Positions 1,483 through 23,669 of a stretch of DNA of 64,000 nt are shown here, in pieces. Every line of letters starts with the position of its first letter. Position 1 is the first letter of the stretch. Under the pieces are notes generated by a model that saw only the letters and a list, made by a program, of their open reading frames with translations, did no database searches and was not told the DNA's origin. Origin of the DNA: Paraurantiacibacter namhicola (GTDB lineage: Bacteria; Pseudomonadota; Alphaproteobacteria; Sphingomonadales; Sphingomonadaceae); the NCBI RefSeq assembly GCF_001687545.1, contig NZ_CP016545.1:2155001-2219000 (forward strand). The letters run 5' to 3'. The position numbers and the translations under genes are program-made.

Positions 1483-1495
1483 TGGCGCGCTTGTG

Positions 1496-2080: not shown

Positions 2081-2098
2081 AAGATCGGAACGTCCTTG

Positions 2099-2881: not shown

Positions 2882-5247
2882 CAGCCCTGCTCCCTTTCCT
2901 GGCACAGCCGCCAGATCTTCTCCGGCGTGGCGGGCATGTCCACATGGCGGACGCCCAGCGCGTTGCAGACCGCGTTGATGACGGCGGGCGGAGAGCCAAT
3001 GGCCCCCGCCTCTCCGCAGCCCTTCATGCCCAGCGGATTGCTGGGGGAAGGCGTGCATGCAAACTCAAGCTTGTATTCCGGCACGCCCTGCGCGCGCGGC
3101 ATGCCGTAGTCCATGAAACTGGCCGACATCAGCTGGCCGGTTTCGGGATCGTACATGGCATTTTCCCAAAGCGCCTGACCGATGCCCTGCGTCACGCCGC
3201 CGTGGACCTGACCTTCGACAATCATCGGGTTAGCGACATTGCCGAAATCGTCCGCGGCGCAGAAGCTGGCAACCTCCACGGTCCCGGTGTCAGGATCAAT
3301 CTCCACCTCGCAGACATAGACGCCAGCAGGGTAAGTGAATTCCGGCGGATCGAAGAAGCTGGTGGCAACAAGGCCCGGCTCAATCTCATCCGTGGGGAAG
3401 CCGGAGGCCGCATGGGCAGCAAAAGCCACTTCCGGGAAGGCAAGCGTGACGTTCGTATCCTTGCTGGAGAAGATCCCCTCGTCGAACTCCACCGCGTCAT
3501 ATTCGACCTGCATCAGGTGTGCGGCGATCTTCTTTGCCTTGGCGATGATCTGGTCGCATGCCCGCAGCGTGGCCGACATGCCCACCGAAGCGCGCGAGCC
3601 GTAAGTCCCTGTGCCAGCCTGGATGCGCGACGTATCGCCCTGGATAACGGAGATGTTCTCTATCGGCACGCCGAACCGGTCGGAAGCGACCTGCGCGAAC
3701 GTTGTGGCATGGCCCTGCCCGTGCGAATGCGCGCCCGTGAGGATTTCCACCGTCCCCACCGGATGCACGCGCACCTCGGCAGATTCCCACATGCCCGCGC
3801 CGCCGCCCAGCTTGGCCAGCTTGGCGGATGGACCGATGCCGCATGCTTCCACATAAGCTGCAAGACCGATGCCGCGCAGTTTGCCGCGCGCTTGGCTGTC
3901 TGCCTTGCGCGCTGCGAAACCACCGTAATCGCCCAGCTCGAGCGCGGCGTTCAGCGTCTTCTCGTAGTCGCCGGAATCATACTCGTAGACGACCGGCGTC
4001 TGGTACGGGAATTCAGTGATGAAATTGCGGCGCCGGATCTCCGCCGGGTCGATCCCCAGCTCGCGCGCTGCGACATCGACGATCCGTTCCACCACATAGG
4101 CCGCTTCGGGCCGCCCTGCCCCGCGATAGGCGTCTACCGGGCAGGTATTGGTGTATATTGCCCGCACGCGTGCATGGATGGCAGGGATAGCATACTGGCC
4201 GGACAGCATCGTTGAATACATGTAAGTCGGCACCAGCGATCCGGAGCTCGACATGTAGCCCCCGACATTGGCCAACGTATCGGCCCGCAACGCCAGGAAC
4301 TTGCCGTCCGCATCCAGCGCCAGCTCCACCTCGGTAAGGTGATCGCGGCCATGCGCGTCGGTCAGGAAAGCCTCGCTGCGATCGGCCGTCCATTTCAGCG
4401 GGCCGTCGACCATCTTCGAAGCGAAGGTCACAGCTAGCTCTTCCGGATAATTGTGCGCCTTTGAACCGAAGCCGCCGCCCACATCCGGGGACACCATGCG
4501 CAGCTTGTGTTCTGCCGCCAGGCCGAATGCCGCGGCATAAAACATGCGCATGCCGATGGGGTTCTGGTGCGTCAGGAAAACCGTAAGCTCTTCGCTGCCG
4601 GCGTCCCATTGCGCATTGATCGCGCGCGGTTCGATGGCGTTAGGTATCAGGCGGTTGTTGCGCAGCGTCAGGGAGACACGGTGAGCAGCCTTGTCGAAGG
4701 CGGCATCGACTGCCGCACTGTCGCCGATATCCCAGTCGAACGCGCAATTGCCCGCAATCTCGTCATGCAGCAGCGGGGCGCCGTCTGCCACGGCATCCAG
4801 CACGTCCACCGCGACCGGCAGGTCCTCGTAATCGACCATCACCGCTTCTGCAGCATCGCGCGCCTGCGCCAGAGTTTCGGCCACCACAAGCGCGACCGGC
4901 TCACCAACATAGCGCACCCGGTCGGTCGCGATTGCATTGCGCACACCGATCTTCTGCGGCTCCCCGTCGGTTGAGAAGATTGCCCAACCGGCCGGGAGCG
5001 CAGGCAGCCCGGCATCGACAAGGTCGCGCCCCGTCAGGATGCGCCGCACGCCCGGCATGGCCGCGGCATCGTCCAGGTCGATACCCGTGATCCGGGCATG
5101 CGCCATGGGTGAGCGCGCGAAGGCCGCATACAGCTGGCCCGGCAGGATCATGTCGTCGACATACTTGCCCTTGCCGCGCAGGAAGCGCCCGTCTTCCTGC
5201 CGCTTTACCGACTGGCCGAATTTCACGCTGGAAGCCGGGATATTCAT
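2881..5247 (-). CDS. Molybdenum hydroxylase large (Moco-binding) subunit, form II CoxL-like
   Basis: A 788-residue aldehyde oxidase/xanthine dehydrogenase-family large subunit that binds molybdopterin cofactor. The aldehyde oxidase a/b hammerhead lies in residues 20-130 and the Moco-binding domains in about 150-780. Near residue 370 the active-site loop reads AYRGAGR. True (form I) CO dehydrogenases have AYxCSFR with the Cys that ligates copper, so this is a form II enzyme. It probably hydroxylates an organic substrate such as an aldehyde or N-heterocycle, not CO. VGGGFGSKAHNYPEE (about 250) and GCGEAGAIGSPPAVINAV near the C-terminus (the Glu is the expected catalytic base) are intact. The start MNIPASSVKFGQSVKR at 5247 overlaps the coxS stop (ATGA). 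Confidence 0.93.
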   Translation of the reverse strand: MNIPASSVKFGQSVKRQEDGRFLRGKGKYVDDMILPGQLYAAFARSPMAHARITGIDLDDAAAMPGVRRILTGRDLVDAGLPALPAGWAIFSTDGEPQKIGVRNAIATDRVRYVGEPVALVVAETLAQARDAAEAVMVDYEDLPVAVDVLDAVADGAPLLHDEIAGNCAFDWDIGDSAAVDAAFDKAAHRVSLTLRNNRLIPNAIEPRAINAQWDAGSEELTVFLTHQNPIGMRMFYAAAFGLAAEHKLRMVSPDVGGGFGSKAHNYPEELAVTFASKMVDGPLKWTADRSEAFLTDAHGRDHLTEVELALDADGKFLALRADTLANVGGYMSSSGSLVPTYMYSTMLSGQYAIPAIHARVRAIYTNTCPVDAYRGAGRPEAAYVVERIVDVAARELGIDPAEIRRRNFITEFPYQTPVVYEYDSGDYEKTLNAALELGDYGGFAARKADSQARGKLRGIGLAAYVEACGIGPSAKLAKLGGGAGMWESAEVRVHPVGTVEILTGAHSHGQGHATTFAQVASDRFGVPIENISVIQGDTSRIQAGTGTYGSRASVGMSATLRACDQIIAKAKKIAAHLMQVEYDAVEFDEGIFSSKDTNVTLAFPEVAFAAHAASGFPTDEIEPGLVATSFFDPPEFTYPAGVYVCEVEIDPDTGTVEVASFCAADDFGNVANPMIVEGQVHGGVTQGIGQALWENAMYDPETGQLMSASFMDYGMPRAQGVPEYKLEFACTPSPSNPLGMKGCGEAGAIGSPPAVINAVCNALGVRHVDMPATPEKIWRLCQEREQG

Positions 5248-5720
5248 GCCGTGCCCTCCATCTTGCCTGCGCCTTCGACGATAGAGGCCACGATGTTCTG
5301 GTAGCCCGTACAGCGGCAAAGATTGCCCTCAAGCTCGTGCCGCACCGTGGCGGGGTCCGGCTTCCCATGGCGGCGTGCGATATCGATACCCACCATTACC
5401 ATGCCGGGCGTGCAATAGCCGCATTGCAGGCCGTGATTGTCATGAAATGCCTGCTGCATCGGATGCAGATCGTCGCCGTCCTTTGCGAGGCCTTCGATCG
5501 TGGTCACGCTGCGCCCTTCGGCCTGCACGGCCAGCATCGCGCAGCTCTTCACCGCTTGACCATCGACATGCACGGTACAGGCGCCGCACTGGCTGGTGTC
5601 GCAACCCACATGCGCGCCGGTCAGGCGCAGGTGATCGCGCAAGGCATGGATCAGGAGCGTGTTGTCAGGGACATCCAGAACCGCCTGTTTGCCATTCACC
5701 TCCAGTGAAATTTCAGCCAT
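5244..5720 (-). CDS. Molybdenum hydroxylase 2Fe-2S small subunit, CoxS-like
   Basis: A 158-residue iron-sulfur subunit with both clusters visible. The N-terminal plant-type ferredoxin site is CDTSQCGACTVHVDG (about residues 40-54) with a further Cys at SCAML. The C-terminal site is CGYCTPGM (about 100) with CRCTGYQ (about 134). It passes electrons from the molybdenum centre to the FAD subunit. The ATG at 5720 follows a GAGG-containing leader. It is the first gene of the operon coxS-coxL-coxM-coxG-xdhC, and the 18-bp palindrome at 5791-5808 lies 71-88 bp upstream of it. Confidence 0.95.
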   Translation of the reverse strand: MAEISLEVNGKQAVLDVPDNTLLIHALRDHLRLTGAHVGCDTSQCGACTVHVDGQAVKSCAMLAVQAEGRSVTTIEGLAKDGDDLHPMQQAFHDNHGLQCGYCTPGMVMVGIDIARRHGKPDPATVRHELEGNLCRCTGYQNIVASIVEGAGKMEGTA

Positions 5721-5790
5721 CGCGCCTCGCCCTCCCTATACATGCTCGTCTTACAGGCGAGCCTATGGCATGTCAGGTCAGATGCCAAGA

Positions 5791-5808
5791 CCTATCGATA
5801 TCGATATA
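5791..5808. promoter_or_regulatory. Operator-like inverted repeat, copy 1 (coxS / mobA-like divergent promoter)
   Basis: CCTATCGA-TA-TCGATATA. The right half matches the consensus TATATCGA-N2-TCGATATA at 8 of 8 positions and the left half at 6 of 8. The inner 14 bases form a perfect palindrome. It lies between divergent transcription units, just before the likely start of the nucleotidyltransferase gene and upstream of coxS. Three related sites occur at 8371, 12883 and 15990. Confidence 0.7.
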
Positions 5809-5828
5809 ATGCTGGTCACGCGCCGGAT

Positions 5829-6398
5829 TTGTCTTTGATTGCCGCCACACGCGTGGGGGCGGTCTTGCTGGCCGCCGGGCGCTCCAGCCGCTTCGGTCCG
5901 CAGGACAAGCTGGCCCAGCCCTGGCGCGGCAAACCGCTTGCCCTGCATGCGGCGGGGACGCTGGCAGCCATGCCCTTCGTGGCCCATGCGGTGGTAAGCC
6001 AGCAAAGAGCCAACTGGCCCGTCCCGTCCAAATATATGGTCGTCACCAATCCGGCACCGGACCGCGGGCTGGCGAGCTCCATCGCATTGGGGGCACGGGC
6101 GCTGGCAGACACGGGCGTTGAGGCCTTGCTTTTTGCGCTGGCCGACATGCCGCTCGTCCCGCAAGCGCATTTGGAACGATTGCTCGGCGCCTTCGAAACC
6201 GAAGGTATGGATATGGTCGCGACCATCGGCGGCGGTCGTCCGCAAGTGCCCGCCGTGTTCGGGCGCGCGCACTTCGACATGCTGATGGCGCTTACCGGCG
6301 ACCAAGGCGCGCGCGACATGCTGGGCGATGCCGCTACCGTGGCGTGCGACGCGAAGTTGTTGGCGGATTTCGACCGGCCGGAGGATTTCGCGCGTTAG
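5829..6398 (+). CDS. MobA-like nucleotidyltransferase (Moco cytidylyltransferase type)
   Basis: A nucleotidyltransferase of the MobA/MocA family, about 189 residues. The N-terminal nucleotide-binding loop VGAVLLAAGRSSRFGPQDKLAQPW is diagnostic, and ALADMPLVPQAHLERLL is the metal-binding second motif. Next to a CoxL-type enzyme it probably makes the dinucleotide (cytosine) form of molybdenum cofactor. The frame opens at ATG 5742, but that would put the operator-like palindrome (5791-5808) inside the gene. I prefer one of the TTG codons at 5829 or 5835, or the GTG at 5853. None has a strong Shine-Dalgarno, so the exact start is uncertain. Its stop overlaps the stop of the convergent dehydrogenase by four bases. 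Confidence 0.82.
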   Translation: MSLIAATRVGAVLLAAGRSSRFGPQDKLAQPWRGKPLALHAAGTLAAMPFVAHAVVSQQRANWPVPSKYMVVTNPAPDRGLASSIALGARALADTGVEALLFALADMPLVPQAHLERLLGAFETEGMDMVATIGGGRPQVPAVFGRAHFDMLMALTGDQGARDMLGDAATVACDAKLLADFDRPEDFAR

Positions 6399-8293
6399 CG
6401 TTTCCTGGCGAAAACCAGCAGCACGTTGCCCGCCTCGTGACTATAGAGGCCGTAACCGGAATTTATGACCAGATAGCCATCCCCGACTGCTGCGCCAGGG
6501 CCGGACATGCTGCCCCCCCTTCCGGCCATGTCGTTCACCGTGTCGAACTTGCGGGCGGAATTGAACTCCCACAACCGCTTGCCCGTCTTCCGGTCATAGG
6601 CACGGATCCACCCGTCCATATGGCCCGCCACCACAGCGCCGGGCACCGCCGTCACGGCCGAGGAAATCCCCGGATCGCAATTTGGCCGCCCTTCGCCGCA
6701 GACGTTTGTCTGCACCTGGCTCCACAGCCTCCTGCCGGTACGCGCATCCAGCGCATGCATGCCGGGGCGCGCCGCATCCGGATCCAGAACATCGCCATTG
6801 CGCGTGTTGTTCATGTCGTTGATCGGCACGTAAATCGTGGTGCCCTGTGCCGCCATGCCCCAGTGGACACCGCCCTGGATGCTGCCGCGCCCAACCTTCG
6901 TCTGCCACAGCAGCTTGCCCTTCGCGTCGGGGTCCAGTCCGTAGACTTCACCATTCTTGTGCCCCACCGCCAGCACCTGCCTGCCGCCGCCGACATCGAT
7001 CAGCAGGGGGGAGGACGAATGATCGAAATCGGGCCCGCGCTCTTCGGGACAATTGGGATTGTCCTCCATCATGCAGGCCACGTTCCACGCATCGCCGGCG
7101 ATTGTCTGGCGCTGCCAGACGCGGCGACCGCTTTGCAGATCCAGAGCGAAGATCGAATCGCTATTGCCATCGGCGGGTGACGAATAGTTCTCGCCCGTCC
7201 CGGCATAAAGCACGCCGCGCTTGGCATCGATCGTGGGTGTGACCCACATGGGCGCACCCGACGGGGCGTAGGAGACGCGCCCATTCTTCTCGATGCGCTT
7301 CGGCTCCTCCTCGATGGCCCAGTGCTGCCACTTCACCTTGCCGGTTGCGGCATCGATCGCATCGAGATGGCCGCGGAATGTGCAGCATTCGTAATTCGGG
7401 TCCGCCGCCGGGATGACCTCCAGCGAGGAGACCGGTACGTAAAGGGTTCCGTCGTGATAGGCCGGCGTGCCCGTCAGCGTGGCGCTGGGATGGTCATCCA
7501 TCCGGCGCGACCACGCCATTTTCCCGGTCAGCGCCTCTACGGCGTACAGCTTGCTGGTCAGGTCGCCAAAATAGACCATCGGCGTAGGTCCATCGACCAG
7601 CACGATCGCGGTGCGCACTTCCGCCCCGGCCTTGAAGGTCCAGCGCGCGCAGCCGGTTTCCAGGTCGAAAGCGTAAACGGTCCCGTCATCGCTGCCGACG
7701 AACGCCGCGCCAAAGCCGATAGCGGGCTGGGACCGCGCCTTGGTGGCGTTGGGGAAAGCATAAGCCCATTGCAGTTCCAGCTCGCCCAGGTCGCCGCCTG
7801 TAAGGCCGCCCTTCGAGGCGGGCACGAAGCGCCGCGTATCGTGCCCCCAACCTATGTCGACCGGCTTGCGCGCCCGGTCGAAGTTTGCGGCGCCCCCTTC
7901 ACAGGCGGCGGCATAATTCGCAGCCGGCAGGCCATCAGACAGGTCCACGCGCGTGATGTATTCCGCGACATGCAGCTTGCCCTCGTCGGACAGCATCGCG
8001 CCTTGTTCCGCCATCACTCCGCCATCGAGCGCGGCATATATGGACGCAGGCGACATCATTTCGAGCCATTGGAAATGCGGCGCCCGGGCAACCCCGCCAT
8101 TATGGCAGGATGCGCAATTGTCCGCGTACAGCTTTGCCCCGGGCAGGGAATCACGATCCGCAATCAGGCCGTCTCCGGTTGCAAATTCATCGGTGGAAGA
8201 AAGCGTCCCTCCGCCCTCTGGCCCGCTCGACTGCCCGCAAGCGACCAGCGCCAAGACCGCTGAAACTGCACAGAATATCACGTTCTTAGCCAT
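6395..8293 (-). CDS. Cytochrome c / PQQ beta-propeller dehydrogenase lipoprotein
   Basis: A 632-residue exported protein. The N-terminus has a lipoprotein signal (MAKNVIFCAVSAVLALVACGQ, predicted lipidated Cys at 19). A class I cytochrome c domain follows with the haem motif CASCH near residue 60. The rest is a PQQ-type beta propeller with W-motif repeats such as YAFDLETGCARWTFKAG and YAVEALTGKMAWSRR. This fusion matches polyvinyl-alcohol dehydrogenase (cytochrome), which oxidises secondary alcohols in the periplasm. The actual substrate here is unknown. The start MAKNV at 8293 has GGGGGG just upstream. It is divergent from the TonB receptor and shares the operator-like site at 8371-8388 with it. 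Confidence 0.85.
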   Translation of the reverse strand: MAKNVIFCAVSAVLALVACGQSSGPEGGGTLSSTDEFATGDGLIADRDSLPGAKLYADNCASCHNGGVARAPHFQWLEMMSPASIYAALDGGVMAEQGAMLSDEGKLHVAEYITRVDLSDGLPAANYAAACEGGAANFDRARKPVDIGWGHDTRRFVPASKGGLTGGDLGELELQWAYAFPNATKARSQPAIGFGAAFVGSDDGTVYAFDLETGCARWTFKAGAEVRTAIVLVDGPTPMVYFGDLTSKLYAVEALTGKMAWSRRMDDHPSATLTGTPAYHDGTLYVPVSSLEVIPAADPNYECCTFRGHLDAIDAATGKVKWQHWAIEEEPKRIEKNGRVSYAPSGAPMWVTPTIDAKRGVLYAGTGENYSSPADGNSDSIFALDLQSGRRVWQRQTIAGDAWNVACMMEDNPNCPEERGPDFDHSSSPLLIDVGGGRQVLAVGHKNGEVYGLDPDAKGKLLWQTKVGRGSIQGGVHWGMAAQGTTIYVPINDMNNTRNGDVLDPDAARPGMHALDARTGRRLWSQVQTNVCGEGRPNCDPGISSAVTAVPGAVVAGHMDGWIRAYDRKTGKRLWEFNSARKFDTVNDMAGRGGSMSGPGAAVGDGYLVINSGYGLYSHEAGNVLLVFARKR

Positions 8294-8370
8294 CCGAACC
8301 CCCCTTGATAGCGGCAATCATGCATCACTTTCACGCTCGGTGTATTCGGCCGGTACGGTGCAGATTGACT

Positions 8371-8388
8371 TATATCGAAATCGATATA
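8371..8388. promoter_or_regulatory. Operator-like inverted repeat, copy 2 (TonB receptor / PQQ dehydrogenase)
   Basis: TATATCGA-AA-TCGATATA, a perfect inverted repeat with 8-bp arms and a 2-bp spacer, the best of the four copies. It directly follows TTGACT (8365-8370), a good -35 hexamer for the receptor gene, so it covers the -35/-10 spacer. That is the expected position for a repressor site. It also lies about 80 bp upstream of the divergent dehydrogenase start. Confidence 0.78.
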
Positions 8389-8428
8389 TGTCTTGATGAG
8401 TACGCAACGTCAATTGGGGAGGATTGAC

Positions 8429-10813
8429 ATGAATCTTCGAACTTTCACTCGTGGTTTGGCCTCTGTCAGCGCAGTCGCGCTCGTCGCAGCGGCTGCTCCG
8501 GCATACGCTCAGACGGTCAACGAAGACGAGGAAATGGAGCAGGATGCCCAGGCACCGGGCACCGGCTTCGGCGAGATCATCGTCACCGCCAACCGCCGCG
8601 CCGAAAATGTGCAGGACGTTCCGATCGCAGTGACCGCTCTCAATGAAGAGCTGATCGAGCAGAAGTTCAGCCGCGACCTCCTCGACCTTGGCAGCATCGC
8701 TCCCAATATCGTCGTCGACCCGATCCTCGGTAACGGCACGGCAGCCATCGCCATCCGCGGCATCCAGCTGAATGACGTGGAAAAGAGCTTCGACCCGCCG
8801 GTCGGCGTCTTCCTCGACGGCGTCTATCTCGCCTCCACGACGGGCGCCCTTCTCAACGTTTTCGATGCGGAGACGATCGAAGTCCTGCGCGGCCCGCAGG
8901 GCACGCTGTTCGGCCGCAATACGATCGGCGGCCTGATGCATATCCGCCGCAACCGGCCTACCGGCGAACTGGGCGGCAAGGTCAGCGTCACTTACGGACG
9001 CTTCGACCAGTTTGACGTCAAGGCCGTGCTCAACCTGCCGTCCTTTGCGAACGGCGCGATCAAGGCAAAGGTCGCTGCAGTCCGCCTCGACGGCGGTGGC
9101 TACTTCTACAATGTCACGCGCAACGAACGCGAAGGTGACAACGATCTGTTCATGATTAGCCCGATGATCGAATTCGAAATCGGTAATCGCGGCGAAGTGA
9201 CCGTCGCATACGATTATATCCGCGATCGCACGGCGACGCGCCCGGTGACGGCGCTGACCGATCCGAACCAGCTGTTCGGCACGCTGCCGGGCGGTATCGG
9301 ACTGGGCCAGCCGGCAACCAATGTCGACTACCATCGCCAGACGCGGACCTCTTTCGACCAGGCCGCCAGGCTCGACACGCACTCCGTCACGCTCAACGGC
9401 CGTTACGAAGTTGCGGACGGGCATGAGATCTACGCCGTTCTGAATTACCGCGATACGGACGAAGACGCGCTGAACGAGTTCGACGGCGTCGCCGCGGACC
9501 TGTTCTACGCCACGCGTCCGCAGAAGATTGACCAGTTCTCGGCAGAGCTTCGTTATCAGGCCGACCTGGGACCGGCCAATATCGTCGCGGGTCTGTATTA
9601 CTTCGACAGCGACTACACCATCAGCCAGCGCACCTTCTTCTTTGGCGGTGAAGTCGGCGGGACGGATTACCAGCAGTCGGCCAAAAGCTACGCCGTATTC
9701 GCGCAGCTGGACTACGAAGTGCTCGATGGCCTGACGGTCACGCTGGGCGGACGCTACCTGATCGACGAGAAGGCTGCCTGCGGTGGCCTCGGCAGCGGTC
9801 CGGTGGATAACCGCACTTACATCATCTCTTATGGTGCATGTAACGAGACGCGGCGTAATGCGCCCGGCTTCAGCAACGCACTTCCGGCGCCGCTCACCGG
9901 CTCCGTTACGGGCGAGGAGACCTGGAAGAAATTCACTCCAAAGCTGGGCCTCAGCTACGACTTCGGCGACAAGCTGATTTACGCGTCCTATTCCGAAGGC
10001 TTCCGCTCCGGCGGCTTCAACGGCCGTGGCAACGACATCCTGACGCTTGGGCCGTACAATCCCGAGACGGTCGAGAACTACGAGCTTGGCTTCAAGTCGG
10101 AATGGCTCGATCGCCGGATCATCCTGAACGGCTCGTTCTTCCGCACCAAGTATAAGGACAAGCAGGAAGACGTGGTCTTCCCGGATCCGCGCGGTGCGAC
10201 GGTCACGATCGTGCAGAACGCCGCTTCGGCCACGCTGTTCGGTTTCGAACTGGAAAGCCGCGTCATGCCCGCAGAGGGCCTGAGCCTGGGCCTGAATGTC
10301 GGTTACCTGGACGCAAGTTACGATCAGTGGCTTGACCAGGCGCCGCTCCTTTCGGGTCCCAATGCCGGCGATCTGGCGACAATCGACAAGACGGACTTCG
10401 AACTGCGCCGCGCACCGCGCTGGAACGTGCAGGCCGACATGAATTACGAACTCCTGCTCGGTAATGGAGATGGCATCATCTTCGCTGCCGATTATTCCTG
10501 GAAGTCGAAATATTACGTCGTCGCCAACACGATCAACATCCACACCAACATTCCGGGCCGGGAAAATCCGGGCAAGATCGACGCATTCGGGCTGCTGAAT
10601 GCATCTGTCTCTTACGAAGGGAGCAACTTCAAGTTCTCCATCTTCGGCCGTAACCTGACCGGGACGGAATACTTCCAGCACGTGCTGGACGTGGGGACGA
10701 CCTTCGGCGTGCAGCCGGGAAGCACCCAGCCGGTCCCGACCTTCGGTCTGTGGTCCTTCGGCACGATTAACCCGCCGACCACCTATGGCGCGGAAATCGT
10801 GTTCGAATTCTAA
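8429..10813 (+). CDS. TonB-dependent outer-membrane receptor
   Basis: A 794-residue TonB-dependent receptor. It has a signal peptide ending APAYAQ (about residue 29), then the plug domain beginning EIIVTANRRAENVQDVPIAVT and containing VEVLRGPQGTLFGRNT-type sequence (IEVLRGPQGTLFGRN, about 150-165). A 22-strand barrel follows, with the C-terminal strand ending YGAEIVFEF. This is the large sphingomonad type linked to uptake of hydrophobic or aromatic compounds. It is probably the importer for the pathway substrate because it shares its promoter operator with the catabolic genes. Start ATG 8429 follows GGGGAGGA. A strong hairpin terminator follows the stop. Confidence 0.95.
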   Translation: MNLRTFTRGLASVSAVALVAAAAPAYAQTVNEDEEMEQDAQAPGTGFGEIIVTANRRAENVQDVPIAVTALNEELIEQKFSRDLLDLGSIAPNIVVDPILGNGTAAIAIRGIQLNDVEKSFDPPVGVFLDGVYLASTTGALLNVFDAETIEVLRGPQGTLFGRNTIGGLMHIRRNRPTGELGGKVSVTYGRFDQFDVKAVLNLPSFANGAIKAKVAAVRLDGGGYFYNVTRNEREGDNDLFMISPMIEFEIGNRGEVTVAYDYIRDRTATRPVTALTDPNQLFGTLPGGIGLGQPATNVDYHRQTRTSFDQAARLDTHSVTLNGRYEVADGHEIYAVLNYRDTDEDALNEFDGVAADLFYATRPQKIDQFSAELRYQADLGPANIVAGLYYFDSDYTISQRTFFFGGEVGGTDYQQSAKSYAVFAQLDYEVLDGLTVTLGGRYLIDEKAACGGLGSGPVDNRTYIISYGACNETRRNAPGFSNALPAPLTGSVTGEETWKKFTPKLGLSYDFGDKLIYASYSEGFRSGGFNGRGNDILTLGPYNPETVENYELGFKSEWLDRRIILNGSFFRTKYKDKQEDVVFPDPRGATVTIVQNAASATLFGFELESRVMPAEGLSLGLNVGYLDASYDQWLDQAPLLSGPNAGDLATIDKTDFELRRAPRWNVQADMNYELLLGNGDGIIFAADYSWKSKYYVVANTINIHTNIPGRENPGKIDAFGLLNASVSYEGSNFKFSIFGRNLTGTEYFQHVLDVGTTFGVQPGSTQPVPTFGLWSFGTINPPTTYGAEIVFEF

Positions 10814-10871
10814 CAGGGGATCGGGGCGCCACTGGCGCCCCGACAGGTCCCCCGCTTGCGGGGGACGGGGG

Positions 10872-10914
10872 CAAAAAAAGGGGCCCGGCGTGAAGCCGGG
10901 CCCCTTTCCTTTTG
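10872..10914. terminator. Bidirectional rho-independent terminator
   Basis: A 10-bp GC-rich stem (GGGGCCCGGC at 10880-10889 with GCCGGGCCCC at 10895-10904) and a 5-nt loop. A run of seven A precedes it and TTTCCTTTT follows it. It can end the receptor transcript on the plus strand and the DUF3604 transcript on the minus strand. Confidence 0.88.
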
Positions 10915-10927
10915 CCTGCGGTGGTTG

Positions 10928-12865
10928 TCAGCGCGGCGCGCGGTACCAGATGGGCGAACTGTAAACCCGATCCTGGGTCTCTGCCGGGACATTGGGCGGC
11001 AGGTCCAGATTGTATCGCACCGCATCGTAAGTCGTCCAACGCGGCGTGGGGATCTGCAACACGCGTGCGTAATAGAACGCCTGCTGTCCGGCATCGAATT
11101 CCGGATCGACCCAGAAAGTACGCAGTTCCGGTTCGCCGATGGAATTTGTGAACGTCGCAGTCTTCACGTCCACGGTGCTGCCCACTGGCGGCGCCTTGCC
11201 AGTCGCGGGATCGACCTTGCGGCCATCGGACAGGGCCACGTCATAGACCTGTTCGTGCAGCGTCCCGTCGCTGTCGCGCCAGCCCTTCACGATCTGGATA
11301 CGGTCCAGGTAAGCTCCGTCGGGATCCATGGCTGCATGCAGCAGGAAGCCCGGCGCATTAGCCTTCTTCGAAGGTGTCAGGATGCCACCCATCGGCACAC
11401 CCTTGGCGTAACCGTTGGCAACCAGCGCCTCTCCGACCAGGTCCGCGCTGGAAAATTCCCAGCCGCCGAACAGTCGCAGCTCGATCCGCGGTCCGGTGGA
11501 GGCATAGACTTCCCGGCGCACCATGGCGTCGAAGATCTCCTTGCGCGTGTTCGCTCGCGCCCAGACGCCGACATAGCCTGCTGCGGACAAGGTGGCGTTA
11601 CCCCAGAGCGCGCCGCCCATGGACGAGGCAAGGCGCAGCGCAGATGGTTCGGAATCCGGGAACTTCCCGAAGAAATTGTCCTCCGCGACAGCCGGGATGC
11701 CGGTATGCACATCGGTGCTGCCGATCATGCCGAATTCGAACGGATTGATGCCGTCGAAGGCAGTATAAAGCAGCCCTTTTTTGAGTGCGCCGCGGGCATA
11801 TTCGCCCTGCATCTGGCGGCGCAGCTCCTCCTTGTCAGTCGTGCGCGGATTGCGGCCGAGGTCCGTCTCGTCCCAGTTCTCGAAATCCGCAAATTCGTCA
11901 TGCGGGGAGATATGCTGGTGCGTCTCCCCATCGCCCTTTACCTGCGTGACCTCCACTACCGGTTCGAACTTGTGGCGGGTCTTGCGGTAATCGATCGACA
12001 GCGGCTCGCCGGACATGGTCTTGTCGGGGAACATCGCCCCGTCGGACAGATTGCCATTGTGCGGGATGGTCAGGACACGCCCACCGGTATTGGTTTCGTA
12101 TGTCGCCAGCGCCTTCCAGAGCTGCTCCGGATCGTTGCTCTCCAGCGCCGAATAGGGAAGCGTCTGAAGTGCTTTTTCCGGACCGTCGGCAAACATCACC
12201 ACACGGTGCAGGTTGTCCCCGCTCTTCATGGCAGACCATTCGTAGCCGATCATCGTGGTGAACTTGCCCGGATCGTTATACTTCTCCGCCGAAGCGATGA
12301 CGCCGGCCCAGGTGTTGCGGGAAAATTCCAGTGGCAGCGGCTCGGCAGGCGCCTCGCCCGAGGTGATGGCCACGAATTCCTGGATCACATCGATCATGCG
12401 GCCTTCCTCGACGAAGCCGGACCAGCGGGTGGACAATGCGTGCTGCTGCAGCAGCGGGTCCTTCCGCTCGATGCCCTGCATCAGGCCGAGATATTCCGCG
12501 TGATCGGCCACCAGCAGGAAATCCAGCGGCCGTTGCAGCTTTGCCGTCACGCCGGTGGTGGATGTCACCGCCTCTCCGCGCGCAAAGCGATAGGAATCCT
12601 CCGGAGAGAAGTGATGCGTGCCGAAGCTGTAGGCATCGAACGACATGTTGGAATGCGTGTGCAGGTCACCCCAGAGCAGCTTGTCCGGAGTGGCGGCGAG
12701 CTGCGCCCCCGGCCCCTCGCCCTCTGCCTGGTCGGACCGCTGTTCCGCCGAACAGCCGGCCAGCGCCAGCGCAGCGCAACCGCACATCAGGGCGCGCGTC
12801 ACATGCCTTGGCAGGCTGCGCTTATCCGGGCTGTCTCCAGCCGGGATCCTACTCTCCAATGTCAT
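10928..12865 (-). CDS. DUF3604 family lipoprotein (PHP-like)
   Basis: A 645-residue exported protein of the DUF3604 family. The N-terminus has a lipobox (CGCAALALAGC, Cys about 38). The mature part starts with KLLWGDLHTHSNMS, the His-rich metal-site motif shared with PHP hydrolases. Further conserved His/Asp motifs are VADHAEYLG, IPHNGNLSDG, ISPHDE and GSTDVHTGIPAVAEDNFFGK. The biochemical role of the family is not settled; a metal-dependent hydrolase is the usual guess. It is divergent from the decarboxylase-family gene, and operator copy 3 lies just upstream of its ATG at 12865. It is probably a periplasmic or outer-membrane step of the same pathway. Confidence 0.88.
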   Translation of the reverse strand: MTLESRIPAGDSPDKRSLPRHVTRALMCGCAALALAGCSAEQRSDQAEGEGPGAQLAATPDKLLWGDLHTHSNMSFDAYSFGTHHFSPEDSYRFARGEAVTSTTGVTAKLQRPLDFLLVADHAEYLGLMQGIERKDPLLQQHALSTRWSGFVEEGRMIDVIQEFVAITSGEAPAEPLPLEFSRNTWAGVIASAEKYNDPGKFTTMIGYEWSAMKSGDNLHRVVMFADGPEKALQTLPYSALESNDPEQLWKALATYETNTGGRVLTIPHNGNLSDGAMFPDKTMSGEPLSIDYRKTRHKFEPVVEVTQVKGDGETHQHISPHDEFADFENWDETDLGRNPRTTDKEELRRQMQGEYARGALKKGLLYTAFDGINPFEFGMIGSTDVHTGIPAVAEDNFFGKFPDSEPSALRLASSMGGALWGNATLSAAGYVGVWARANTRKEIFDAMVRREVYASTGPRIELRLFGGWEFSSADLVGEALVANGYAKGVPMGGILTPSKKANAPGFLLHAAMDPDGAYLDRIQIVKGWRDSDGTLHEQVYDVALSDGRKVDPATGKAPPVGSTVDVKTATFTNSIGEPELRTFWVDPEFDAGQQAFYYARVLQIPTPRWTTYDAVRYNLDLPPNVPAETQDRVYSSPIWYRAPR

Positions 12866-12882
12866 ATCTGCCCTCTCCCATT

Positions 12883-12900
12883 TGTATTGATATGAATATA
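12883..12900. promoter_or_regulatory. Operator-like inverted repeat, copy 3 (DUF3604 / decarboxylase-family)
   Basis: TGTATTGA-TA-TGAATATA. It is the weakest of the four copies, with 6 of 8 matches in each half against TATATCGA-N2-TCGATATA, but it has the same 18-bp size and a TA spacer. It is the only such site in the divergent intergenic region between genes on both strands (12866-12999). Confidence 0.55.
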
Positions 12901-12999
12901 TCTATACATCACATCCGGAGTTGGATAGGTTGTTTTTCGGCCATGGCGCGGTCTGTTGCGCGTCTTTGGACTGCAGTTTTCAGAACGGACAGGATAGGC

Positions 13000-13899
13000 A
13001 TGATGGGCGAACAGCGGTTTTCCGAAGACTGGTGGAGCAATTGGCCGCAAAGCGACACTTACCTTGCGTCCGACGGCCACGTCGCGCGCATTCCGCTGCG
13101 CCTGCAAAGCACCAATCTGGTCATCTACGGCGGGGCCGACCTTGCAGAGGTAATGAAAGAGTTCGAGCACGAGGATACAGTCCCGGTATCGGTGGGCGGA
13201 CGCGTGCCGGTGCAGCTGTGGTGCAACAATTTCACCGACACCGACTGCGGGCCGACGGATCGCACGAACCCATATCTTGAGACCTGGTTCTCCTTCCCGG
13301 TCGTGGCGAAATCCAGCCCGCTGAAACTGCCTTATGAATCGCCCTTCTCACTGAACGTAGAGCATCCGGATGCCTTGGTGATGACGCACCGCGTGCTCTG
13401 CGGCGGCGACCGCGACGGATATACCGTGGGCGCGCAATCCGCGATTTCCTGCGGGCGGGAAGTTTGGGGCTTCCCGAAACATCCCGGCCTTGCCGACCTG
13501 GCTTTCGATTATGTCGGCGATGACGAGATGACCTTTGCCGCCAACCACCTGGGCCGCTCTGTATACACGCTGCGCGCGCGGTTGCCGGAGGCCGTGGAAG
13601 GCCATGTCAGCGTATCGGTCGATGTCGCGACCGGGCCCGACACCTGCATCACCCCCTCACAGAATCCGCACAAGGCCGGGTTCATCCCGAAGCAGACGCG
13701 TTACGCGACGGCGATGGCTGCCACCCTGGCCTTCGCGCCGTGGGATACTGCCACGGACACGCTGGAGATCCAGGGCGAGGATGATCATTTCGGCGGCTTG
13801 CTCAAGAGCTGGAATTTCCAACCCGAACTCAAGATGCACACCAGCGACTTCAAGGTGGTGGCGCGCAAACCCGCAGGCTGGGGGGCCGAACTGAAGTAA
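13000..13899 (+). CDS. Acetoacetate decarboxylase-family protein
   Basis: A 299-residue protein of the acetoacetate decarboxylase (ADC) fold. The region EVWGFPKHPGLADLAF (about residues 155-170) corresponds to the ADC motif E-x2-G-x-P-K, where the Lys is the Schiff-base lysine in true ADC. The segment HPDALVMTHRVLCGGDRDGYTVGAQSA is also family-like. Members in sphingomonad catabolic clusters often act on other beta-keto acids or as hydratases, so the reaction is uncertain. Two adjacent ATGs (13000 and 13003) follow AGGATAGG. The frame is open far upstream, antisense to DUF3604, but codes nothing family-like there. Confidence 0.8.
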   Translation: MMGEQRFSEDWWSNWPQSDTYLASDGHVARIPLRLQSTNLVIYGGADLAEVMKEFEHEDTVPVSVGGRVPVQLWCNNFTDTDCGPTDRTNPYLETWFSFPVVAKSSPLKLPYESPFSLNVEHPDALVMTHRVLCGGDRDGYTVGAQSAISCGREVWGFPKHPGLADLAFDYVGDDEMTFAANHLGRSVYTLRARLPEAVEGHVSVSVDVATGPDTCITPSQNPHKAGFIPKQTRYATAMAATLAFAPWDTATDTLEIQGEDDHFGGLLKSWNFQPELKMHTSDFKVVARKPAGWGAELK

Positions 13900-13900
13900 A

Positions 13901-13915
13901 GGCCCGTGACGGGCC
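13901..13915 (+). other. Intercistronic hairpin before the Rieske gene
   Basis: GGCCCGT-G-ACGGGCC, a perfect short palindrome starting two bases after the decarboxylase-family stop. No T-run follows, so it is more likely an RNA-processing or mRNA-stability hairpin than a terminator. Confidence 0.4.
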
Positions 13916-13954
13916 GCAAAAGCCCGCACTCCGGCCGCGAGAGGAGACGTCAGG

Positions 13955-15358
13955 ATGAACAAGCAAGCAGATGCCGGCAGTTTCGACCCCGCCAATGCCG
14001 AGGTCGCGCGCTGCCCGGGCCGGTCCTTCCAGGACATCCTCGCCGCAGATTCCGGATCGCAGCCGGAAATTCTGAAGGAACAGAGCTTCGTCCACCAGGG
14101 CGATGAGCCGCTCTCGACCGATCGCTACCTCAGCCAGGAATTCCACGACCTGGAAAAGGAGCGGCTGTGGCCGCGCGTGTGGCAGATGGTCTGCCGCGAG
14201 GAGCATATCCCCGAAGTCGGCGACCACATCCTTTACGAGATCAACGATGACAGCTTCATCATCATCCGCACCGCGCCGGATGAGATAAAGGCTTATTACA
14301 ACGTCTGTCTCCACCGCGGCACGCAGCTGCGCAGCTGCGCGGGCAATGTGAAACAGCTGCGCTGCCCCTTCCACGGCTTCGCCTGGAACCTCGACGGTAC
14401 GCTGAAGGACATCCCCTGCCGCTGGGACTTCGGGCAGGTGGAAGACAAGGAAATGAACCTCGACGAGGCGCATGTCGATACATGGGCGGGCTTCGTCTTC
14501 ATCAATCAGTCCGAGGACCCGCAGCCGCTGGCCGAATACATGCATCCTGCGGGCGAGCATTTCGAAAACTGGCCGATGCATGATCGCCATATCAGCGCGC
14601 ATGTCGGTAAGGTGATGAACTGCAACTGGAAGATGGCGCAGGAGGCTTTCATGGAAGTCTACCATGTCGTCTCCAGCCATCCGCAGGTGCTGCCCTATGT
14701 GGGCGACTGCAACAGCCAGTACGATATCTGGCCCGATGCGCCGCATGTCAGCCGCATGCTGACCGCTCAGATGACGCCGAGCCCGCACCTTGGCGACACG
14801 GTGAGCGACCAGGAGATGCTCGACGCGATGCAGGCCGACATGGACCTGCCGGGTTTCGAACCCATCACCTCCGTCCCCGAAGGCGTTTCCGGACGCCAGC
14901 ATTTCGCAGACAAACTGCGCGAGTATTTCACGAAGGTGACGCAGGCCGATTGCAGCCACCTGTCGAATGCGGAGCTGCTCGACGCGATCGAGTATTTCAT
15001 CTTCCCCAATTTCCACCCCTGGGGCGGCGTCACCCTGCCGATGGTCTATCGCTTCCGGCCCTGGAACAACGATCCGGGCAAGTGCCTGATGGAAGTGATC
15101 CTGCTGCGGCCCAATCCGGTTGGGGAGCCCGCCCCGCCGCCCGCGAAGATGCGCATGCTGTCGGAAGACGAGGACTGGGGCTGCGCCTCCGAACTTGGCT
15201 GGCTCGGCCTCGTGTTCGACCAGGACGTGGTGAATGTCGCGCGAATGCAGGAAGGCCTGAAGACCACTCGCCGCAAGGGCGTGGTGATGAGCGTCTATCA
15301 GGAAAGCCGCATCCGCCACATGCACAACACGCTTTCAACCTATCTCGAACGGCCCTGA
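13955..15358 (+). CDS. Rieske non-haem iron oxygenase, large (alpha) subunit
   Basis: A 467-residue aromatic-ring-hydroxylating oxygenase alpha subunit. The N-terminal Rieske 2Fe-2S site is intact: CLHRG (about 119) and CPFHGFAW (about 137). The catalytic mononuclear-iron region has EAFMEVYHVVSSHPQ (about 228), with the two His of the facial triad. An acidic segment near EDWGCASELGWLGLVFDQD (about 405) probably holds the Asp. No separate beta subunit lies nearby, so it may be an alpha-only (alpha3) enzyme. The next gene encodes a ferredoxin that can feed it electrons; no ferredoxin reductase is in the window. The start ATG 13955 follows GAGAGGAG. Confidence 0.93.
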   Translation: MNKQADAGSFDPANAEVARCPGRSFQDILAADSGSQPEILKEQSFVHQGDEPLSTDRYLSQEFHDLEKERLWPRVWQMVCREEHIPEVGDHILYEINDDSFIIIRTAPDEIKAYYNVCLHRGTQLRSCAGNVKQLRCPFHGFAWNLDGTLKDIPCRWDFGQVEDKEMNLDEAHVDTWAGFVFINQSEDPQPLAEYMHPAGEHFENWPMHDRHISAHVGKVMNCNWKMAQEAFMEVYHVVSSHPQVLPYVGDCNSQYDIWPDAPHVSRMLTAQMTPSPHLGDTVSDQEMLDAMQADMDLPGFEPITSVPEGVSGRQHFADKLREYFTKVTQADCSHLSNAELLDAIEYFIFPNFHPWGGVTLPMVYRFRPWNNDPGKCLMEVILLRPNPVGEPAPPPAKMRMLSEDEDWGCASELGWLGLVFDQDVVNVARMQEGLKTTRRKGVVMSVYQESRIRHMHNTLSTYLERP

Positions 15359-15378
15359 GCAGGGACGAAGCTGCGCGA

Positions 15379-15690
15379 ATGCCCACTGTCACGGTCCTGC
15401 CCGCCGATATCGCCATGGAAACGCAGCCGGGCGAGACGCTTCTCGGCGCGGCGCAGCGGCTCGGCTACACTTGGCCAACCGTCTGCGGCGGCGAAGGCCA
15501 GTGCCGTACGTGTTATGCCGTAATCGAGCAGGGTGAGGACGCCCTCTCCCCCGTCACCGCGCTGGAAGAGGAGGCCAGCCCTGCCCTTGCCATCGTGGCG
15601 CGGCGAGCGGGAAAGCCTGTCCGGCTGGCCTGCCAGGCCGTGCCTACAGGAGACATCACCGTCCAGCGCAGCGGCGTGCGAAAATCGTGA
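15379..15690 (+). CDS. 2Fe-2S ferredoxin
   Basis: A 103-residue plant/adrenodoxin-type ferredoxin. The cluster cysteines are in CGGEGQCRTC (about residues 36-45), with the last Cys in RLACQAVP (about 87). It begins MPTVTVLPADIAMETQPGETLL. It lies 20 bp after the Rieske oxygenase gene and is its most likely electron donor. The frame is open far upstream inside the oxygenase gene, but the fold starts at ATG 15379. Confidence 0.9.
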   Translation: MPTVTVLPADIAMETQPGETLLGAAQRLGYTWPTVCGGEGQCRTCYAVIEQGEDALSPVTALEEEASPALAIVARRAGKPVRLACQAVPTGDITVQRSGVRKS

Positions 15691-15742
15691 TCCGCCATCA
15701 GCGGCCGAATGCCGCCACTCGCCCAGCCAAGGAGTCCGCCGC

Positions 15743-15946
15743 ATGAGCCACACCCGTTTCAACCGCCTCGACAATTGCAATTACACCCTCGACGAGAGCG
15801 GGCAGATCCGCGTCGAGGATTCGGAGACCGGGACGACAGGCCTGTTCGACGAATTCGGGGCACATCTCGAAGGCGAACTGAAGCAGGCGGACGTGCAGAT
15901 GTGCCAGTTCCTGGCCAAGCTCGGCAAGCATCGCCCCGGCGGCTGA
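15743..15946 (+). CDS. Small acidic protein of unknown family in the Rieske operon
   Basis: A 67-residue protein that I do not recognise. It has no signal peptide or membrane helix. It is acidic in the middle (SGQIRVEDSETGTTGLFDEF) and predicted helical at the C-terminus (LEGELKQADVQMCQFLAKLG). It has two Cys, neither in a metal motif. The start ATG 15743 is backed by a clear AAGGAG ten bases upstream. It lies 53 bp after the ferredoxin gene and before the promoter of the cupin gene, so it is probably co-transcribed with the oxygenase and ferredoxin. A small accessory or assembly protein for the oxygenase is possible, but nothing in the sequence proves it. Confidence 0.65.
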   Translation: MSHTRFNRLDNCNYTLDESGQIRVEDSETGTTGLFDEFGAHLEGELKQADVQMCQFLAKLGKHRPGG

Positions 15947-15989
15947 CAACCTGTCGCCGGGCACGAGGAAGGACTCGCGCCCACAAAAA

Positions 15990-16007
15990 TATATTGCTAT
16001 CGATATA
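15990..16007. promoter_or_regulatory. Operator-like inverted repeat, copy 4 (cupin operon)
   Basis: TATATTGC-TA-TCGATATA. The right half matches the consensus at 8 of 8 positions and the left at 6 of 8. It lies 31 bp upstream of the cupin ATG (16038), in the only sizeable gap between the oxygenase genes and the cupin-VOC-oxidase-SDR genes. It probably marks a separate promoter for that downstream unit. Confidence 0.68.
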
Positions 16008-16037: not shown

Positions 16038-17117
16038 ATGGCTGAAGCGTATAATCCTGAATACGATCCCACTGGGCTCGAAGGCGCAATCGATACGAAC
16101 AGGATGTATTGGCTCGATGCGCCGCACCTGCCCGGCGTCTCGCTGAAGCCGCTACGGACGAGCACGGAAAGCAGCTTCTTTACCACCATGGTGCGCATCG
16201 CGGCCGGGGCAGAGCTGCCCGATGCCGTCTACCTTGGCGGCATGGACATGTGGGTCCTTTCGGGCAGGCTGACATACCAGCAGGACAGCGAAATCAGCAT
16301 CCTAGAGCCGGGCGTCTGGGGCTTCATCGGCGCAAATTCGCGCGTCGCCTCCATCAAGGCGGAAACCGATGCCGAACTACTCGTCAATTTCTACGGCGCC
16401 GCTGCCTTCCTGGGGGACGGCAATTCCGTCAATTCCATCCTGACGAGCCTGGATGTGCTGCGCCTTGCCCGGGAGCATAAGTCACCGCTTGTGCCCAACA
16501 CCCTGGCTTATTGCGCCAAGGACACCTCCAACCGCTTCGAGGGCGATGGCGAACCCATGGCTATCGCATCGAAAGAAGCGGGCGAGCTGTTCGTCGGCGG
16601 GGCAGGCGAATTCGCCACGCCGGCCGATGTGCGCCACCCGCATTTCGTAGACACCAGGGCCGTCCCGTGGGCGGTCGACGAGAATATTCCCGACGTAGGC
16701 CTCAAGATCCTCCGCATCAGCGAAGAGACCGGCTTCGTTACCATGGTGGTGCGTCACAACGGCGAAGCACCCCCTCACCGTCACTTGGCCGGCGCCGACT
16801 TCCTCGTGCTCCAGGGCGCCATGGGATATCGCGCCGGGCCGCCGGAGGGCACCGGACCCGGCATCTGGGTTTACGAGCCGCCGGGAGCGCGCCATGAATC
16901 GACTCAGCGGCTCGGCACACAGGACCTGATCTACACGGCCAATCTCTATGGCCCTATCGCCTTCGATTCCGGCAAGGGCACGCCGCCTGTCGCGATCCTG
17001 TCCTGGATGGAATACCAGCAGCTGGCAGAGGCCGCCGGCGCGAAGCTGATCCCCAGCTCCAAGTCCGAGGCGGCGACGCTGCTGGCCTGGGCCCCGATAG
17101 CCAAGCGCCCGGCCTGA
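16038..17117 (+). CDS. Double-cupin protein, 2,4'-dihydroxyacetophenone dioxygenase-like
   Basis: A 359-residue protein with two cupin domains (about 30-135 and 205-325). The second has a plausible metal site: PPHRHLAGADFLVLQGAMGY in motif 1 and GIWVYEPPGARHES in motif 2. At the equivalent place the first domain reads ELPDAVYLGGMDMWVLSGRL, with no His, so it looks catalytically dead. The second half resembles the ChrR-like and 2,4'-dihydroxyacetophenone dioxygenase cupins, which cleave a C-C bond using Fe and oxygen. A dioxygenase or ring-cleavage role fits the Rieske oxygenase upstream. The substrate is unknown. Confidence 0.8.
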   Translation: MAEAYNPEYDPTGLEGAIDTNRMYWLDAPHLPGVSLKPLRTSTESSFFTTMVRIAAGAELPDAVYLGGMDMWVLSGRLTYQQDSEISILEPGVWGFIGANSRVASIKAETDAELLVNFYGAAAFLGDGNSVNSILTSLDVLRLAREHKSPLVPNTLAYCAKDTSNRFEGDGEPMAIASKEAGELFVGGAGEFATPADVRHPHFVDTRAVPWAVDENIPDVGLKILRISEETGFVTMVVRHNGEAPPHRHLAGADFLVLQGAMGYRAGPPEGTGPGIWVYEPPGARHESTQRLGTQDLIYTANLYGPIAFDSGKGTPPVAILSWMEYQQLAEAAGAKLIPSSKSEAATLLAWAPIAKRPA

Positions 17118-17151
17118 GCCGGTCCGCAAGCGCAAACTGACAGGACTTTCG

Positions 17152-17547
17152 ATGGCGAAAATCATCCACACCATGATCCGCGTCGCCGACGAGGATCGCT
17201 CGACCAGATTCTACAAGCAGGCCTTCGATCTCGACGTTGCAGATCGCTTCCCATTCGACGGCTTTACCCTGGTGTACCTGCGTAATGACGAGTGCGATAT
17301 CGAGCTGGAGCTGACGATCAACGAAGGCCAGGAAGACGCCTACAGCCACGGGAGCGGCTACGGCCATATCGCAGTCGCCGTCGACGATATCGAGGCGGAG
17401 CATGCGCGGTTCGAGGAGCTTGGCTTCGACCCGACGCCGGTGAAGTCCATGGACCACAACGGCAACCCGCTTGCGACCTTCTTCTTCGTGACCGATCCCG
17501 ATGGCTACAAGATCGAGATCCTCAAGCGCCAGGGCCGCTACCGGTGA
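17152..17547 (+). CDS. VOC superfamily protein (glyoxalase I-like)
   Basis: A 131-residue vicinal-oxygen-chelate protein with two beta-alpha-beta-beta-beta modules. The putative metal ligands match glyoxalase I: His6 (KIIHTMIRV), a Glu in CDIELELT (about 46), His in YGHIAVAVDDI (about 74) and Glu in YKIEILKR (about 123). It may be a glyoxalase, isomerase or extradiol-type enzyme of the pathway. Its stop overlaps the GTG start of the next gene, so the two are translationally coupled. Confidence 0.85.
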   Translation: MAKIIHTMIRVADEDRSTRFYKQAFDLDVADRFPFDGFTLVYLRNDECDIELELTINEGQEDAYSHGSGYGHIAVAVDDIEAEHARFEELGFDPTPVKSMDHNGNPLATFFFVTDPDGYKIEILKRQGRYR

Positions 17548-18920
17548 TCGACCAAGGCCTTGCAGCGCAGCTCGAGGCCCTGCTTGGCGACCGTTTCACC
17601 TGTTCGCCCGGCGTTTGCACCGAACATGGCCGGGATATTTCGCACCTTGATCCGCACTCGCCCGACGCAGTCGTATTTCCGCTATCGACGGAAGAAGTGC
17701 AGGCGGTGGTCAAGGCCTGCGCTGCGCACGGAACGCCCATCGTGCCATACGGTGTCGGCACCTCCCTTGAAGGCAATATCCATGCATTGCGCGGCGGCGT
17801 GTGCATCGACCTTTCGCGCATGGACAAAATCCTGAAGGTCAATCAGAATGACCTCGACGTTGTGGTAGAACCGGGCGTTACACGGCTGCAACTCAACGAA
17901 TATCTTCGCGACACAGGCCTGTTCTTCCCGATCGACCCGGGGGCGAACGCCACCATCGGCGGCATGGCCTCCACCCGGGCATCAGGCACCAATGCGGTGC
18001 GCTACGGCACGATGAAGGACAATGTCCTTTCGCTGGAAGTGGTCACCCCCAGCGGCGAAGTGATCCGCACCGCGCGCCGCGCCCGCAAGTCCTCCGCCGG
18101 ATATGACCTGACGCGGCTCTATGTAGGATCGGAAGGCACGCTGGGCATCATCACCGAGGTCACGCTGCGCCTGTATGGCATGCCGGAGAAGATCGCCTCG
18201 GCTGTCTGCCCGTTCGACGACATCGGCAATGCCATCCAGTCGGTGATGGAGACTATCCAGCTGGGCGTGCCGATCGCGCGCATCGAATTCCTGGACACGC
18301 AGACAATCCGCGCGGTCAATCACGTGTCCAAGCTGGACCTGCCGGAAAGCCCTCACCTGTTCCTGGAGTTCCACGGCACCGAGCAGGGCGTTGATGAGCA
18401 GGTCGCACTGGTGAGCGAGATCTTCGCCGGTAACGGTGCAGGCGCCTTCCAATGGGCGGAAAAGCCCGAAGATCGCACCAAGCTGTGGCAGGCGCGGCAC
18501 GATGCGGCGCTCTCCATCCCGGCCTACGCCACCAACACCAGGCAGTGGTGGACCGACATCTGCGTGCCGATCTCGCGCTTGGCCGACTGCATCGCGGAGA
18601 CACACGCCGACATCGCCGAAAGCGGCCTGTACGCCCCCATGCTTGGCCATGTCGGCGACGGCAACTTTCACCTCGCGATCTGCCAGCGCGAAGGCGAGCC
18701 GGAGGATGTCGAGCGGGCAAAGACACTCAATGACCGCCTCGTCCGGCGCGCTCTGGCTGCCGGGGGCACCTGCACTGGAGAGCACGGCGTGGGCCGCGGC
18801 AAGATGGCCTATCTGGAAGAAGAGCTTGGCGGCAGCGTCGATGTGATGCGCTCGATCAAGCAGGCGCTCGATCCCGGCAACATCATGAACCCGGACAAGA
18901 TTTTCCACTTCCAGGGTTAA
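17544..18920 (+). CDS. FAD-linked oxidase, GlcD/D-lactate dehydrogenase-like
   Basis: A 458-residue FAD-binding oxidoreductase of the PCMH type. The FAD domain contains PYGVGTSLEGN (about 72) and ANATIGGMASTRASGTNAVRYG (about 133). LYVGSEGTLGIITEV follows near 192. The C-terminal FAD-oxidase domain has GHVGDGNFH (about 370) and GEHGVGRGK (about 413), the metal and substrate motifs of D-2-hydroxyacid dehydrogenases. It probably oxidises a 2-hydroxy acid made in the pathway and passes electrons to quinone or cytochrome. It starts at GTG 17544, overlapping the VOC stop (GTGA). Confidence 0.9.
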   Translation: MIDQGLAAQLEALLGDRFTCSPGVCTEHGRDISHLDPHSPDAVVFPLSTEEVQAVVKACAAHGTPIVPYGVGTSLEGNIHALRGGVCIDLSRMDKILKVNQNDLDVVVEPGVTRLQLNEYLRDTGLFFPIDPGANATIGGMASTRASGTNAVRYGTMKDNVLSLEVVTPSGEVIRTARRARKSSAGYDLTRLYVGSEGTLGIITEVTLRLYGMPEKIASAVCPFDDIGNAIQSVMETIQLGVPIARIEFLDTQTIRAVNHVSKLDLPESPHLFLEFHGTEQGVDEQVALVSEIFAGNGAGAFQWAEKPEDRTKLWQARHDAALSIPAYATNTRQWWTDICVPISRLADCIAETHADIAESGLYAPMLGHVGDGNFHLAICQREGEPEDVERAKTLNDRLVRRALAAGGTCTGEHGVGRGKMAYLEEELGGSVDVMRSIKQALDPGNIMNPDKIFHFQG

Positions 18921-18946
18921 GGCCGGGATGGCTCGAGGAGAGTAGA

Positions 18947-19741: not shown

Positions 19742-19763
19742 CCATCACAAAGGAGAATGCCGG

Positions 19764-22034: not shown

Positions 22035-22062
22035 TTCTCTTCAAGCAGAAGGTCGCAGCACC

Positions 22063-22542: not shown

Positions 22543-22610
22543 CCGGCGGACGGTAACCGCCAAGCTCCGTGGGCGGCACGAAACTCGGAGCATCAAAGAG
22601 GACCAGAACT

Positions 22611-23657: not shown

Positions 23658-23669
23658 GGATAGGCGGCC

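Follow-up and report, generated by a model that had tools for sequence, protein, structure and literature searches.

Four 18-bp inverted repeats in the window analysed here (64,000 nucleotides, positions 2155001-2219000 of a contig of 2,591,679 bases) are very probably operators of an autoregulated, ligand-released repressor of the MarR family, which is encoded in the same window and would control a catabolic gene cluster. The local regulon that an earlier note on this DNA had proposed is upheld by the genome-wide exclusivity of the sites, by their presence before orthologous operons in seven other genomes and by their overlap with promoters. That MarR binds these sites, that it represses from them and that a ligand relieves the repression is what we infer from these features of the sequence.

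Probable operator sites in the window and in the genome

The four repeats lie exactly where the earlier note had placed them, each in an intergenic gap (Table 1). The form ascribed to them, TATATCGA-N2-TCGATATA, holds for the copies at 8371, 5791 and 15990 with at most two mismatches, but not strictly for the copy at 12883, which departs from it at four positions. Three sites with up to three mismatches to this consensus are seen in the window against 0.02 expected from dinucleotide-preserving shuffles, and the score of the 12883 copy was matched in none of 5000 shuffles of its own gap.

Table 1. Candidate operators and genes of the cluster within the window (window coordinates)
Feature	Position	Strand	Location or product detail	Support
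Operator CCTATCGATATCGATATA	5791..5808		between coxS (-) and mobA (+)	2 mismatches; 28.0 bits, external matrix
Perfect operator TATATCGAAATCGATATA	8371..8388		overlapping divergent PQQ/TonB promoters	0 mismatches
Degenerate operator TGTATTGATATGAATATA	12883..12900		between DUF3604 gene and ADC-like/Rieske/ferredoxin operon	4 mismatches; 22.3 bits
Operator TATATTGCTATCGATATA	15990..16007		~30 bp 5' of cupin operon	2 mismatches; 26.3 bits, external matrix
MarR-family regulator	48..518	+	156 aa	Pfam MarR 9.9e-10; seven orthologues, gene order conserved
Molybdenum-hydroxylase operon	505..5720	-	XdhC, CoxG, CoxM, CoxL, CoxS; read from 5791 site	Pfam XdhC, COXG, FAD_binding_5, MoCoBD, Fer2_2
MobA-like nucleotidyltransferase	5742..6398	+		PF12804 1.1e-31
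PQQ-type quinohaemoprotein dehydrogenase	6395..8317	-		PF13360, PF01011, Cytochrome_CBB3
TonB-dependent receptor	8393..10813	+	start ATG near 8429	PF00593 6.9e-42, PF07715
DUF3604 protein	10928..12865	-		PF12228 7.5e-222
ADC-like protein, Rieske oxygenase, [2Fe-2S] ferredoxin	13000..15690	+		PF06314 (weak), PF00848/PF00355, PF00111
Cupin, small ORF, GlcD-like FAD oxidase, two SDRs	16038..20543	+		PF12973, FAD-oxidase_C, adh_short

A search of the whole 2.59-Mb genome with up to three mismatches returns 16 places, only five of which have two mismatches or fewer (2144250, 2152461, 2160791, 2163371 and 2170990, the last three being 5791, 8371 and 15990 of the window). These five are confined to 26.8 kb (2144250-2171007), for which uniform random placement gives a probability of about 6e-8. 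The ten three-mismatch places that were examined lie mostly inside coding frames (D-I-D-type codons) and score at most 17.1, a background level no better than that of random sequence; on these two grounds the examined places were rejected as operators. The top four places of a whole-genome profile search all fall in the cluster, each with E<0.1. Since every site with at most two mismatches lies in the cluster and the cluster also heads the profile search, the motif is not equally frequent at unrelated loci.

The sites were also scored with a symmetrised matrix of 23 sites, all taken from genomes other than that of the window (G000); the matrix is independent of the letters of G000 but not of the form of the motif, because its sites were found via the consensus of the earlier note and promoter alignments. 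The six sites of G000, which are the four of the window and the two upstream of it, reach 35.1, 30.7, 29.4, 28.0, 26.3 and 22.3 bits on this external matrix, the best non-site in 110 kb reaches 13.1 bits and the best score in 2.6 Mb of random second-order Markov sequence is 18.1 bits. The 12883 copy, at 22.3 bits, exceeds both the next non-site and the random best and can thus be taken as real by this measure, though without a confirming orthologue.

The set of genes assigned to the regulon in the earlier note was sound as a local regulon but too small, as it lacked two operator regions just 5' of the window. The site at 2144250 precedes an amidohydrolase-P450-P450-SDR-ThuA-SDR operon (region 1), and that at 2152461 lies between SnoaL-SDR-amidohydrolase genes on the minus strand and a glyoxalase-hydratase-MFS-MarR operon on the plus strand, 14 bases 5' of the latter's first start codon (region 2). 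As marR is the last gene of this operon, the regulator's own transcription unit carries a site. Together with the four regions of the window, these cover nearly all genes of a 30-kb degradation cluster. Directly 3' of the cluster, at 20913-30916 of the window, several large, putatively secreted proteins are encoded in a row (DUF11/DUF7927-like, followed by proteins of 1693 and 722 aa); none of the operator sites is linked to them.

Conservation of the sites and their position in promoters

Orthologues of MarR with 58-76% identity are found in seven of 298 other Sphingomonadaceae genomes, which represent six genera besides the window's own and include a Parerythrobacter MAG and Sphingosinicella microcystinivorans, and all seven are embedded in the same gene set. 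A class-wide search of 385 alphaproteobacterial genomes found no further orthologue apart from the G000 protein itself, and the regulon is thus not traceable beyond the family. In two of the orthologous clusters (G289, L061 near 5096-6233; G174, L066 near 13774-14918) an extra old-yellow-enzyme-like FMN oxidoreductase, recognised by eye, stands between ThuA and the SDR.

The palindrome is present in front of the amidohydrolase operon in all seven orthologous clusters. The operator of the marR operon recurs at the same position in the seven orthologous loci, and all 8 of the 8 clusters have TTGACA upstream of it. This promoter, TTGACA-N18-AAGYATCGATTTCGATAYA, is almost constant: six genomes have AAGYATCGATTTCGATAYA itself, G284 differs by a single change (AAGCTTCGATTTCGATACA) and G113 has a decayed, degenerate version, while the stretch after TTGACA is variable. 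The cox/mobA and PQQ/TonB sites are also kept in closer relatives, the 5791 operator being conserved, and the 8371 operator exact, in both G018 and G292. Between orthologous promoters the 18 bp are conserved while the flanks differ, so that the operator aligns and its surroundings do not, which is a phylogenetic footprint. The DUF3604, ADC-like/Rieske/ferredoxin and cupin operons (window 10928-16007) were not found in the examined stretches of the other seven clusters, which suggests that they joined the regulon as additions specific to this lineage; because the genes that they serve are not found there, the sites at 12883 and 15990 lack separate phylogenetic support.

These comparisons bear on the view that the repeats are chance A+T-rich palindromes or copies of a dispersed repeat element, to which the degenerate 12883 copy would lend itself. 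The low expectation in the window and the absence of any other such site in 2.59 Mb outside the cluster speak against it, as do flanks that differ from site to site around 18 bp kept between orthologous promoters. Conservation in seven genomes refutes a chance or repeat-element origin, which was rejected and to which we attach almost no likelihood.

Judged by consensus and conservation, the operators overlap pathway promoters at tonB, the PQQ dehydrogenase gene, the amidohydrolase operon, mobA and the marR operon. The 8371 copy is, as had been noted before, a perfect palindrome just after a -35 hexamer, which reads TTGACT; in the tonB promoter the operator stands directly behind TTGACT/A, within the -35/-10 spacer. 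The PQQ promoter, on the opposite strand, has a conserved TTGACC/G followed after 18-19 bases by TATATC, which forms the operator edge, and its -10/+1 region is covered. In the amidohydrolase promoters of five genomes (G000, G018, G292, G242 and G284), a conserved TTGC stands next to the operator, whose right end supplies the -10 (TATAAA or TATAAC; spacer 15-16). The operator of the marR operon begins within the -10 and covers -10/+1, and the right end of the 5791 operator forms a TATAAT -10 for mobA, the true start of which probably lies downstream of this operator. The -10 hexamers are weak matches to the consensus at tonB and at the marR operon. The promoter scan found no clear promoter at coxS, cupin or DUF3604, and at these three and on the Rieske side no overlap is evident. 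Operators placed over the -35/-10 spacer or over -10/+1 occupy the position expected for repression.

It is conceivable, at a low likelihood, that MarR binds the sites but acts in part as an activator, for example at coxS, where a conserved TTGGCA element would perhaps follow downstream of the operator. The coxS side indeed has no good promoter overlapping the operator, and a conserved TTGGCAT block is present on its gene side; the overlap with the core promoter at tonB, PQQ, amidohydrolase and the marR operon fits repression instead, and the majority of characterised MarR proteins are repressors (PMC3737563).

We favour repression, which would operate as follows. A MarR homodimer would bind the 18-20-bp palindrome through 8-bp half-sites whose centres are spaced by roughly one helical turn, and would block RNA polymerase at the -35/-10 spacer (tonB, amidohydrolase) or at -10/+1 (marR operon, PQQ). 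MarR may be released from DNA by binding the substrate, an aromatic or terpenoid-like compound, or else an intermediate formed early in the pathway. The six operator regions would then be induced together, derepressing a catabolic cluster of roughly 30 genes: the amidohydrolase operon (region 1) and the SnoaL genes divergent from the marR operon (region 2), the cox genes divergent from mobA and the PQQ dehydrogenase divergent from the TonB receptor (regions 3 and 4), and DUF3604 divergent from ADC-Rieske-ferredoxin, followed by cupin-GlcD-SDRs (regions 5 and 6). The operator in marR's own operon would make the circuit self-limiting.

MarR as the candidate regulator

The MarR protein had been named as the candidate regulator, and this choice is backed, short of proof, by the lack of any other DNA-binding protein among the gene products common to all eight clusters, by the site in its own operon and by co-occurrence. 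Of 298 genomes, 15 have sites with at most one mismatch, namely 6 of the 8 with marR and 9 of the 290 others (Fisher p=1.4e-7, a value that ignores shared ancestry). Two or more such sites are found in four genomes, all of which carry marR, with the sites within about 30 kb of it. The cluster P450 is found in the same genomes as marR and in one fragmented assembly; since marR and the other genes of the cluster are inherited jointly, co-occurrence cannot tell them apart.

A real local regulon could accordingly be under a different regulator (a TetR, GntR or IclR protein from another locus, for instance), with MarR controlling a subset of the genes or something else, as co-occurrence and synteny tie the motif to the whole cluster rather than to MarR alone. 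We consider this improbable, in view of MarR's position as the sole shared DNA-binding protein, of the best-conserved operator lying in the promoter of marR's own operon, and of the neighbouring site that a MarR paralogue in G242 also has; MarR itself thus remains the preferred regulator.

The paralogue in G242, a Sphingosinicella-type genome (L056, G242:C4:52001-66000, at about 4899-5371), is a second, 43%-identical MarR about 29 kb from the first. The palindrome recurs 113 bp from its gene in nearly perfect form, as TATATCAATATCGATATA. The two may possibly be paralogous regulators sharing one operator.

Profile searches identify the winged helix-turn-helix of MarR (PF01047, 38.6 bits against a cut-off of 24.6; PF12802, 36.4 against 27). 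Its AlphaFold model has the order a1-a2-a3-a4-wing-a5-a6 in about 150 aa, at a mean pLDDT of only 48, and the protein is remote from solved MarR structures. By score, the nearest NCBIfam models are OhrR (8e-11, 41.8 bits against a cut-off of 200) and TcaR (2.5e-10, 40.6 against 170), and the nearest catabolic model is HpaR (2.8e-5, 23.9 against 121). Assignment to the named equivalogs OhrR, TcaR, HpaR, Saro_0803 and BilQ was rejected; MarR shares the wHTH family of OhrR, TcaR and HpaR but, with scores far below the curated cut-offs, falls outside every named equivalog.

Relation to known systems and to the pathway

MarR proteins are palindrome-binding dimers, many of them autoregulatory, and for most of them repression lasts until a ligand is bound (PMC5487221; PMC3737563). 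The present regulon resembles known MarR catabolic regulons such as that of HucR and uricase (PMC5487221) in its small MarR protein, palindromic promoter operators, autoregulation, use of one operator for divergent promoters and repression presumably relieved by a pathway compound; it differs from them in having six operator regions over about 30 kb, where those have a single site. SCO3205 of Streptomyces coelicolor (PMC3737563) is likewise a MarR-family dimer, with an expected footprint of about 22 bp and a pseudopalindrome predicted from orthologous upstream regions, and controls its own promoter and a divergent catabolic-type gene; phylum and target genes differ, and the likeness is drawn apart from the operator sequences. 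The operator TATATCGA-N2-TCGATATA was not found for any MarR protein in the literature searched. Thus the regulon is newly described, while the kind of circuit is well known and the regulatory principle ordinary.

The literature searched on the operator sequence, the DUF3604 family, an abscisic-acid cluster and this gene set held nothing that identifies the pathway substrate. PDB matches were rejected as a guide to it, those of the P450 (CypX, 3e-16) and of the amidohydrolase (prolidase, ochratoxinase and molinate hydrolase types) being too distant or mixed. The enzymes themselves (P450s, molybdenum hydroxylase, PQQ dehydrogenase, Rieske oxygenase and SDRs), together with the TonB receptor, do no more than hint at a natural product of terpenoid, alkaloid or aromatic type.

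As a tentative reading that we hold as somewhat doubtful, the regulon might represent an entire catabolic pathway of sphingomonads, undescribed to date, for a natural product with no gene link so far; its parts would be P450s and amidohydrolases (two of each), a molybdenum hydroxylase, a PQQ dehydrogenase, an MFS transporter and a dedicated TonB receptor. Were this so, MarR could be used directly as a biosensor for the compound. The regulon supplies a precise candidate operator and a candidate regulator for a conserved, uncharacterised catabolic cluster, and its operator sites delimit which genes form one pathway, a requirement for finding the substrate.
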